From positions 1-64,000 of the forward strand of contig NVRK02000015.1 in NCBI GenBank assembly GCA_002400845.2: 64,000 bases of DNA. Direction: 5' to 3'. This document shows positions 4,595 through 26,002 of this stretch, piece after piece (within the stretch, counting starts at the first letter, position 1; the number at the start of each line of letters is the position of its first letter). Both the position numbers and the translations under genes were made by a program. The notes under the pieces were generated by a model. It was given only the letters and a program-made list of their open reading frames with translations. It was not told where the DNA came from and did not search any database. Source of the stretch: Hyphomicrobiales bacterium. GTDB taxonomy: Bacteria > Pseudomonadota > Alphaproteobacteria > Rhizobiales > Rhizobiaceae.

Positions 4595-6334
4595 CTAAGC
4601 CGCCGATTCAGATGCTACAGAACGCTTTAGCCTGTTAGATTCAGCATCCATCTTTTGGCCCACCGCCAGCTGTCCTGCCTGCGTTGGACGTGCTGGCCTT
4701 TTGTTTCTATCCAAAAACTCTGCTTGCCCTTTGACAATTCGCATTGTTCTGTTCGCAATTTTTAAGATGGAGGTTCTTTGAGAAACAACAATCACCGCGG
4801 CGCCTTGCTTCTTTGCAGCGATCAGCGCGTTAAACAACATGCCTTCTCCATATTGGTCCAGATGTGCATTTGGCTCATCAAGAATGAGAACTTTCGGGGT
4901 GCCATATAAAGCGCGCGCAAGAGCAATGTTTTGCCTCTGTCCCATAGAAAGTTGAAATTCTCCCATACCAACGATTGATTGATACCCTTTTGGTAGGCCC
5001 AAAATCATCTCATGAACGCCTGCCGCTTTAGCCGCTTTATAAACTGTCTGCTCATCAAAATAAGCATCAAAGCGAGCGATGTTATCTGCGATAGTGCCTG
5101 GAAACAAATTAACCTCTTGGGCAACATAGCCAATATTTCGGCCCCACTGTTCCGTTGGCCATTGGTCATATTGAGCATTGTCCATCAACAATTCGCCTGC
5201 GCTGGGGCGAAGCGCACCAGCCAACATGCGAACAAATGTCGATTTACCTGCACCAGAAGCACCCACAACAACAACAATTTCGCCAGGTTTAAGCTGCAAA
5301 GAAATGTTGTTGATTATGCGCGTTCCAGGAGCCGCGCCTTTAGGGACATAAATAAGATTTTTAGCATGTAAATGGCCTACAGGTTCAGGCAACATCGCGC
5401 GTGCTGACAATGTTTTTTCTGGGCCCGTTAATTCTTCAACAGCTTTATAAGATGCATAAGATTTTGTTATTTGCTCCCAGCTACCAATGACTTGCTCAAT
5501 AGGACCAAGGGCTTTGCCAGATATCATGGACGCAAGAAAAATCTTGCCGCCAGACATATCGCCAGCTAATACAAGAAAAGCACCCCACCCCATAATAGAG
5601 ACCTGCAAAATTTGACGAAACGCTTTACTAAGCGAAAAGAAGATCGCTGACTTATCAGAAGCATCTTCTGCTGCAATCAACGCAGAGGCAGTTCTGTGCC
5701 CCCAAAGCGTAATAAAATTTGGCAACAAACCAAGTGTGCGCACATCTTCACCTCTAGAAAACGCAGCTTGAGCAAAGCCAATAGCCTCGCCATCCATATC
5801 ACGGCTCTTCGTTCGACTCTGCTCTGTCATCTTACCATTAAGATAACTAAACAACGCCATTACAAAAATACCGCCCAGTGTTACTAGAAAAATTGACCAA
5901 TGAACAAAAAACAGAAGCAATAGAAAGAATGGAATAAAGGGTAAATCAAAAAGACCAATGACTGTTCGACCAGATAAAAAGGTTCTAACAGTTCCGTAGT
6001 CACGTAAATATTTAGAAATCGCCATAGGTGATTGAGGAAAATTTGCGAAACGGGCAAATAACTTATCCGCCACACTAACCGTATATTTTGCAGCTAGACG
6101 CTGAGAAACCTTTGTTCTGATGGTTTCCGCGACACCATAAACAACCAAAGCAAAAATTGCGATCAAAGTAATGAAAAATAGTGTTGGCTTGCTTCCAGAG
6201 CTTAAAACCCGATCATATATTTGCAACATATGAAAAGATGGCGCCAAAATCATCAAATTGGTTATAATAGAGAATGCAAAAAGAGCACGCAAATGTGGTA
6301 GATATACTCTATAAAATGGCTCAGCCACAGGCAT
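4595..6334 (-). CDS. Type I secretion system permease/ATPase (PrsD-like ABC transporter)
   Basis: Walker A GASGAGKST, Walker B VLILDEPNAHLD, signature LSMGQRQNIALARAL, N-terminal TM domain. Confidence 0.94.
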   Translation of the reverse strand: MPVAEPFYRVYLPHLRALFAFSIITNLMILAPSFHMLQIYDRVLSSGSKPTLFFITLIAIFALVVYGVAETIRTKVSQRLAAKYTVSVADKLFARFANFPQSPMAISKYLRDYGTVRTFLSGRTVIGLFDLPFIPFFLLLLFFVHWSIFLVTLGGIFVMALFSYLNGKMTEQSRTKSRDMDGEAIGFAQAAFSRGEDVRTLGLLPNFITLWGHRTASALIAAEDASDKSAIFFSLSKAFRQILQVSIMGWGAFLVLAGDMSGGKIFLASMISGKALGPIEQVIGSWEQITKSYASYKAVEELTGPEKTLSARAMLPEPVGHLHAKNLIYVPKGAAPGTRIINNISLQLKPGEIVVVVGASGAGKSTFVRMLAGALRPSAGELLMDNAQYDQWPTEQWGRNIGYVAQEVNLFPGTIADNIARFDAYFDEQTVYKAAKAAGVHEMILGLPKGYQSIVGMGEFQLSMGQRQNIALARALYGTPKVLILDEPNAHLDQYGEGMLFNALIAAKKQGAAVIVVSQRTSILKIANRTMRIVKGQAEFLDRNKRPARPTQAGQLAVGQKMDAESNRLKRSVASESAA

Positions 6335-24246: not shown

Positions 24247-24990
24247 ATGCAAATTAAAATATTAAATAAAAAATCAGGTAGGTTACTGCTTGATAAAATA
24301 AAAACACAAGAGTCGCTCACCGAAATTATAAGACTTATACAATACAGCGGTGACTACAAAAACGTTGCCTATTTCATGTCTCCAAATGCACCAACGTCAA
24401 ACAAAATGCCATTTTTCCATTCGACCTACCAAAAAAGGTGGATAGAACGTTATTTACGAATGGAATATGGCAACATAGATCCAATTTTATATTACGGATT
24501 AGACAAAGACATCAAAAATAAGGAAAGACACTATTTTTGGGACGATATTGAAGGTCTAAACGATCAGCAAAAAGATTTTTTCAAAGATTCAGTATCTTAT
24601 GAAATCGGAAAAAGAGGCGTCACCTTCCCCATTTCTATACTTCAAAACGCGACTGCGACCTTCTCTTTAACCAGCGACTTAGAGCTGGACGATTGGCGTC
24701 ACAAAATTACAGCTGAAAAAGAAATTCTTGGTGAAATTGCCCATGAGCTCCACGTAAAAGCGATTTTAGAAGTCTACAGTTCTGAAGAGATGCCAAGCCT
24801 ATCTAGAAGAGAAGTTGAGTGCCTTAATCTAATAGCAAAAGGCAAAGAAAGCCCAGTAATTGCAATCGAATTGGGAATTTCAGAACATACAGTTCGTGAT
24901 TACTTGAAGTCTGTTCGTAAAAAATTAGGTTGCAAAACTTTGGCACAAGCGGTGTTTAAAGCAACAAAAATGAGAATTATTGGAATTTAA
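24247..24990 (+). CDS. LuxR-family regulator with autoinducer-binding domain (LuxR solo in this window)
   Basis: WIERY...NIDPI...YFWDD...RGVTFPI in N-domain (W, Y, DP, W, G AHL-pocket pattern); HTH LSRREVECLNLIAKGKESPVIAIELGISEHTVRDYLKSVRKKL. Confidence 0.92.
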   Translation: MQIKILNKKSGRLLLDKIKTQESLTEIIRLIQYSGDYKNVAYFMSPNAPTSNKMPFFHSTYQKRWIERYLRMEYGNIDPILYYGLDKDIKNKERHYFWDDIEGLNDQQKDFFKDSVSYEIGKRGVTFPISILQNATATFSLTSDLELDDWRHKITAEKEILGEIAHELHVKAILEVYSSEEMPSLSRREVECLNLIAKGKESPVIAIELGISEHTVRDYLKSVRKKLGCKTLAQAVFKATKMRIIGI

Positions 24991-25062: not shown

Positions 25063-25078
25063 CCCCCCATATGGGGGG
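25063..25078. promoter_or_regulatory. Perfect 16-bp palindrome CCCCCCATATGGGGGG, candidate LuxR-type operator
   Basis: Read directly; about 70 bp downstream of the luxR-type stop codon. Confidence 0.55.
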
Positions 25079-25111
25079 ATTGCGATTTTCCGTTAAATTA
25101 GAAAAAAGAAC

Positions 25112-25208
25112 ATGTGGTGTAAACTTCTATTGTTCGGAGTGGGTTCGGAAAATAGGGCTGCCGCTTTAGCTGTCCAGGATCAGTGGGTTGGTTCTGGACA
25201 GTTTTATT
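25112..25208 (+). ncRNA. Candidate short transcript (sRNA, or mRNA of a 53-codon ORF at 25112-25273) ending in an intrinsic terminator
   Basis: Terminator CTGTCCAG...CTGGACAG + TTTTATTT at 25170-25208, downstream of the palindrome; no annotated gene in between. Confidence 0.35.
25168..25208 (+). terminator. Intrinsic terminator
   Basis: AGCTGTCCAGGAT...GGTTCTGGACAGTTTTATT; about 13 bp stem counting G-U pairs, then U-rich tail. Confidence 0.65.
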
Positions 25209-25276
25209 TAGCAACTTTATTTAACGAGCATCCCATACATTCTAGTTATTACGCATTCATTTCAATACGCTAAAAC

Positions 25277-25729
25277 TTATCCAGTCAGTTGCGATTTAAT
25301 CAGAGCACCTGCTTTTCCCATATCAATTTGACCGCGATACCGCGTTTTTAAGATACCCATAATCTTCCCCATATCGCGAAGCGATTCGGCGCCCGTCTCT
25401 GTAATCAACTCACCTACAATTTTGTTTGTTTCTTCTTGGGACAATTGTTTTGGCAAAAATTCCTGAATAATTACAATTTCTTCTAACTCTTGCGCCTCTA
25501 ACTCAGCCCTACCAGCTTGTTTGTACATTTTAACAGACTCATCGCGCTGTTTGACCATTTTAGCCAATATATCCAGCACTTCCTCATCATCTGCTTTCTC
25601 TTTCCCTTTGCCACGTAACGCAATATCACGATCATTAATCGCAGCATTCATAAGCCTAAGCGTTGCAACTCGCCGCTTATTTAGTTCTTTTTGCGCACTA
25701 ATAAGTGCTTTAGAAATTGCATTACGCAT
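25277..25729 (-). CDS. yqeY: GatB/YqeY domain protein
   Basis: MRNAISKALISAQKELNKRRVATLRLMNAAINDRDIALRGKGK; MGKIMGILKTRYRGQIDMGKAGALIKSQL. Confidence 0.93.
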   Translation of the reverse strand: MRNAISKALISAQKELNKRRVATLRLMNAAINDRDIALRGKGKEKADDEEVLDILAKMVKQRDESVKMYKQAGRAELEAQELEEIVIIQEFLPKQLSQEETNKIVGELITETGAESLRDMGKIMGILKTRYRGQIDMGKAGALIKSQLTG

Positions 25730-26002
25730 TAGGCATTCCTTTTTGATAAAATTTTGCCGAATATTACATAATAAATTAGGAATGCACATAAAAAATTCTA
25801 AGCTATTGAAATAATTCTGTTTAATTTACATTCAATGGTGTTGATCTTTTGCCCACCTTACAATAGTTTGCCGTTTCAGCTGACACATTTCAAAGCAACC
25901 GAATCTACGGCCAAAATCAAGAATTTTGTTCAAAGATAAAGCCTCGAATTGCGCGCTACTAAAATGCTAGCATTGCCCATAAAGCCTATACGGAGCTAAA
26001 AC

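Follow-up and report, generated by a model that had tools for sequence, protein, structure and literature searches.

Many receptors of the LuxR type have no neighbouring luxI gene, and for most of them the output is unknown. Which gene such a receptor controls is the question raised by a locus in the window, the 64,000-nucleotide stretch analysed here, which is part of a 2.9-Mb genome of the family Rhizobiaceae, 91.5% complete. A luxR-type gene (+ strand) lies between dnaG (- strand) and yqeY (- strand), with carA past yqeY. A preliminary description had listed a GC palindrome, a strong terminator, GTTCGG direct repeats and a 53-codon open reading frame in the interval downstream of luxR, and had proposed a LuxR-controlled small RNA or peptide. 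All of the listed elements were found there. Comparison with related genomes makes it very probable that the interval comprises both promoter and gene for a trans-acting small RNA (sRNA) of ~100 nt that is controlled by the LuxR encoded upstream. The features are as follows.

24247-24990, + strand: luxR-type regulator gene, 247 aa (Pfam domains, TraR/RhlR profile match)
25063-25078, no strand assigned: predicted lux box, a CCCC-N8-GGGG dyad and perfect 16-bp palindrome (same box in relatives)
25080-25085, + strand: predicted -35 element TTGCGA, one base past the box (aligned promoters of nine sRNA loci)
25109-25209, + strand: predicted small RNA gene of ~100 nt, 5' end approximate (covariance models R1/R2, nine genomes in two genera)
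25127-25155, + strand: hairpin 1, loop AGUGGGU at 25138-25144 (unconstrained minimum-energy fold of 25109-25210)
25170-25209, + strand: hairpin 2 plus U-tract, an intrinsic terminator with loop AGUGGGU at 25182-25188 (terminator scan)
25277-25789, - strand: yqeY, neighbour of the sRNA interval

The receptor and the conserved RNA behind its gene

The luxR-type product carries an autoinducer-binding domain (PF03472, E 9e-18) and a GerE DNA-binding domain (PF00196, E 1.5e-15), both above the Pfam cut-off, and a structure-profile search matched it to the TraR and RhlR structures. The AHL-pocket residues W65, Y69, D78, P79, W98 and G124 are invariant in five orthologs and align to a TraR structure; the corresponding TraR positions are W57, Y61, D70, P71, W85 and G113. 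By its domains and pocket residues the protein is a LuxR-type AHL receptor, with ligand binding predicted. Its same-genus orthologs (G001, G004, G005 and G006) are 38-42% identical. No luxI above the cut-off was found in the window genome at its 91.5% completeness. A 240-aa acyltransferase-like protein (L127, G000:C103:28609-28956) gives a weak LuxI-family match of 21.6 bits, below the cut-off; it is dissimilar to true LuxIs and has a relative in G074 (L291, 35% identical).

Reading 3' from luxR, the palindrome is followed by TTGCGA and an AT-rich spacer of ~40 nt, and then by hairpin 1 and the terminator hairpin with its T-tract. A terminator scan recovered the strong terminator previously noted at 25168-25208, calling a hairpin at 25168-25203 with its stem at 25170-25201, followed by TTTTATTT. 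The unconstrained minimum-energy fold of 25109-25210 consists of hairpin 1 and the terminator hairpin, and a 109-nt stretch folds at -37.7 kcal/mol against -25.0 kcal/mol in shuffles, none of the 200 being as low (z = -4.0). The GTTCGG elements, first listed as direct repeats, form the arms of hairpin 1, which pair with G-U wobbles around AGUGGGU. Rfam 15 contains no credible match to this RNA at the gathering score or the E-value threshold. Elsewhere in the window of this alphaproteobacterial host, the Rfam family 5_ureB_sRNA (RF02514) matches 863-1148 on the + strand with 120 bits; this match possibly reflects conserved urease-coding DNA and no RNA gene.

The palindrome-hairpin pair beside an orthologous luxR gene, which the preliminary description had suggested seeking in relatives, is present in four other species of the genus (G001, G004, G005 and G006), where dnaG, luxR, a palindrome-like dyad, TTGC, two AGUGGGU hairpins and yqeY follow one another in the same order. 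A nucleotide search of the interval within the genus returned only short chance matches. Elsewhere in the interval the DNA has diverged beyond the reach of such a search, and the conservation is therefore selective. A covariance model was built from five copies, and the search, covering 398 family genomes, recovered the RNA from 6 of the 7 genomes of this genus and from 3 of the 6 genomes of a second one. The same-genus exception, G002 (77% complete), yielded neither luxR nor the RNA. At the dnaG-yqeY locus of G003 the RNA persists, but luxR has been lost there and the box is eroded. Among the second-genus genomes, G365 and G164 carry luxR beside dnaG and the RNA elsewhere, near yqeY, and the RNA went undetected in three of the six. 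G074 (88% complete) has the RNA and no ortholog of this LuxR.

The loop of hairpin 1, AGUGGGU, is identical in all six RNA-bearing genomes of the genus. The three second-genus RNAs retain the terminator loop GUGGGU and differ in the loop of hairpin 1. Matches of model R1 in three other genera (L138-L141) and of model R2 in other families (L174, L175) have no GUGGGU loop; they were classed as ordinary terminators and rejected. When 398 genomes of the order were scanned with a strict box-plus-GTGGGT pattern, only the window matched; the RNA therefore seems restricted to two genera, although divergent copies may escape this pattern.

The base pairs of the RNA also covary. In the model-fitted alignment of the nine RNAs, which is biased towards the structure, two-sided changes occur in 20 of 28 pairs, compared with 8.8 for shuffles and no more than 8 for slid controls. 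A structure-free alignment of the terminator hairpin from the nine genomes gave standard pairs in 100% of pair cells and compensatory changes in 7 of 11 pairs, whereas slid controls reached at most one compensatory pair and at most 52% pairing. Every one of the nine RNAs has GUGGG as the core of its terminator loop, while the stems vary. Coordinated change in the stems beside an unchanging loop is the hallmark of a functional RNA, and the proposal of an sRNA is strongly supported by a conserved, co-varying two-hairpin RNA in relatives. In the receptor tree, the LuxRs linked to it group to one side of a branch whose support is moderate (66/86); some of the branches are long. At the level of sequence, the gene, its structure, the box and the tie to this LuxR clade are conserved.

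Could the hairpins merely be the luxR 3' UTR and its terminator, between convergent luxR and yqeY, with no separate RNA gene? The site at 25170-25209 is the sole terminator-like site 3' of luxR on that strand, and transcripts reading through from luxR would stop there. We nevertheless judge this explanation improbable, as the RNA and a (degraded) box remain at the G003 locus without luxR, and both remain in the second genus with luxR elsewhere in the genome. Furthermore, a lux-box-like dyad and R-TTG lie directly 5' of the RNA in nine genomes, and a plain terminator has no need of two hairpins with the same loop.

The predicted lux box and the RNA promoter

The palindrome, CCCCCCATATGGGGGG, lies at 25063-25078, 72 bp past the luxR stop (24990), in agreement with the roughly 70 bp first reported. 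Its 14-bp core is unique within the window, matches with up to two mismatches arose in 6 of 100 shuffles, and the exact palindrome has a single copy in the 2.9-Mb assembly. Chance is excluded mainly because of conservation in related genomes. When the promoters were aligned, a lux-box-like dyad plus R-TTG was found immediately 5' of the sRNA in 9/9 genomes. The window's sRNA promoter has no clear -10 hexamer; transcription may start near 25105-25120.

The same dyad accompanies luxI genes. In five relatives (L049-L053) it lies within the gap of a luxR-luxI pair, for example as CCCCCTAAATTTGGGGG. In G004 and G001, luxI (L126 and L128, respectively) is unlinked, has no close luxR ortholog or other luxR adjoining it, and stands behind a CCCC-N8-GGGG box (CCCCTAGATATAGGGGGTTG and CCCCAATATCTGGGGGGTTG) whose spacing to TTG is as at the sRNA. 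The products of L126 and L128 are probable signal synthases for this receptor. With this box preceding an unlinked luxI in at least two species of the genus, LuxR there is probably a receptor of the cell's own signal and not only an eavesdropper. Across ten genomes, the pattern YCCC-N8-GGGG-R-TTG gave 14 matches (7 sRNA promoters, 2 luxI promoters and 5 seemingly due to chance) versus none for the reversed control.

Where luxR and the RNA lie apart, in the second genus, the box accompanies the RNA. No box was found beside luxR at the second-genus luxR loci, and we therefore assign it to the promoter and not to luxR. It was also looked for upstream of the second-genus luxI genes and not found. 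The reading consistent with these comparisons is that the palindrome serves this LuxR clade as its lux box, adjoining a predicted -35 element.

Two further observations concern luxR-luxI pairs. The luxI leaders of L050 (about 4728-4760), L049, L052 and L053 contain complementary stretches around the Shine-Dalgarno sequence, e.g. GCATCATCACAATTGAGGAGGTGATGC, possibly forming a hairpin that controls luxI translation. L051 and L054 are Rhizobiales-like pairs on MAG contigs labelled Kaiparowitsia (a cyanobacterium) and Ferruginibacter, and these labels probably reflect binning contamination.

It is unlikelier still than the 3' UTR explanation that the palindrome is bound by some other regulator, or is a yqeY terminator on the opposite strand, with its link to luxR incidental. 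Read on the minus strand, the palindrome does form a GC stem-loop followed by UAUUU. The same dyad, however, occupies luxR-luxI gaps without yqeY and precedes the unlinked luxI genes, and the same-genus boxes lose the perfect stem pairing that a terminator would require. As for a LuxR-controlled peptide, the 53-codon frame is indeed open from 25112 to 25273, but the proposal finds no support and is highly implausible: the frame has no Pfam match, in relatives it is interrupted by stop codons and shifted where the two loops differ in length by one base, no start codon is shared, and the changes track base pairing, not codons.

Possible action of the small RNA

For an sRNA under LuxR control we propose the following mechanism. 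LuxR, probably with an acyl-homoserine-lactone ligand supplied by an unlinked LuxI or by neighbouring cells, would bind the CCCC-N8-GGGG box adjoining the -35 element and thereby control transcription of the RNA, as it may for luxI in relatives. The transcript would form two hairpins with identical G-rich loops (AGUGGGU), and hairpin 2 would double as the terminator. The loops probably act as seeds that pair with C-rich, ACCCAC-like stretches in target mRNAs, possibly assisted by Hfq. Cell-to-cell signalling thus probably controls a regulatory RNA at this locus.

Simple searches for targets gave no candidate. In the window genome, AACCCACT shows no enrichment relative to the control in the 22 nt ahead of ATG, and the AACCCACT seed-match search found no orthologous genes in common among the 80 regions examined, which take in part of the window-genome hits. 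Nothing consistent emerged from pairing the RNA with luxI or luxR leaders; for luxI leaders, the pairing energies were mostly no better than those of shuffles, the best case having 4 of 60 shuffles as low. As seed searches pointed to no target, the loops may serve in protein binding. We tentatively suggest, with distinctly less confidence than for the RNA gene itself, that the main local output of the receptor could be a dedicated regulatory RNA with a duplicated AGUGGGU loop, not luxI, acting on a regulon or sequestering a protein. If so, the loop motif would be new among known sRNA families.

Comparison with known LuxR-controlled RNAs

The open-access literature yielded no alphaproteobacterial LuxR-controlled sRNA, subscription papers being outside the scope, and no sRNA arm of AHL quorum sensing in Rhizobiaceae was found in the literature searched. 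One review of LuxR solos does not mention sRNA output. The receptor resembles such solos in its intact autoinducer domain and in having no adjacent luxI, but differs in that luxI is present, unlinked and behind the same box, in at least two species of the genus.

Two described systems are similar. In the YenR-YenS system of Yersinia enterocolitica, with a similar RNA in Pantoea stewartii, a LuxR homolog controls an sRNA of 105/165 nt (PMC3493969). YenS represses the luxI-type gene yenI and is made at low signal (PMC3493969). Both there and, by prediction, here, LuxR-type control acts on an sRNA in a quorum-sensing circuit. In contrast to YenS, the window RNA belongs to an alphaproteobacterium, has two hairpins with identical loops and no Rfam match, and gave no consistent match to a luxI leader. 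RhlS of Pseudomonas aeruginosa is a quorum-sensing-controlled sRNA from the rhlI 5' UTR with its own terminator (PMC6786874). The window RNA is likewise predicted to be under quorum-sensing control and has its own terminator; whereas RhlS sits inside the leader of a luxI-type gene, however, the window RNA has no luxI after it and occupies the place of luxI, beside yqeY.

Judged by comparison only, a non-coding RNA gene with its own terminator at a luxR locus is of the YenS and RhlS kind. The window RNA would function like these LuxR-controlled sRNAs, the likeness being one of function, homology aside. The box motif can be used for mapping the LuxR regulon. LuxR-controlled sRNAs are thus already known from YenS and RhlS, and the window locus adds another variant, in which comparative evidence assigns a receptor without a neighbouring luxI a concrete, testable candidate for its direct output, namely an sRNA that is conserved and preceded by the predicted operator of the receptor itself.
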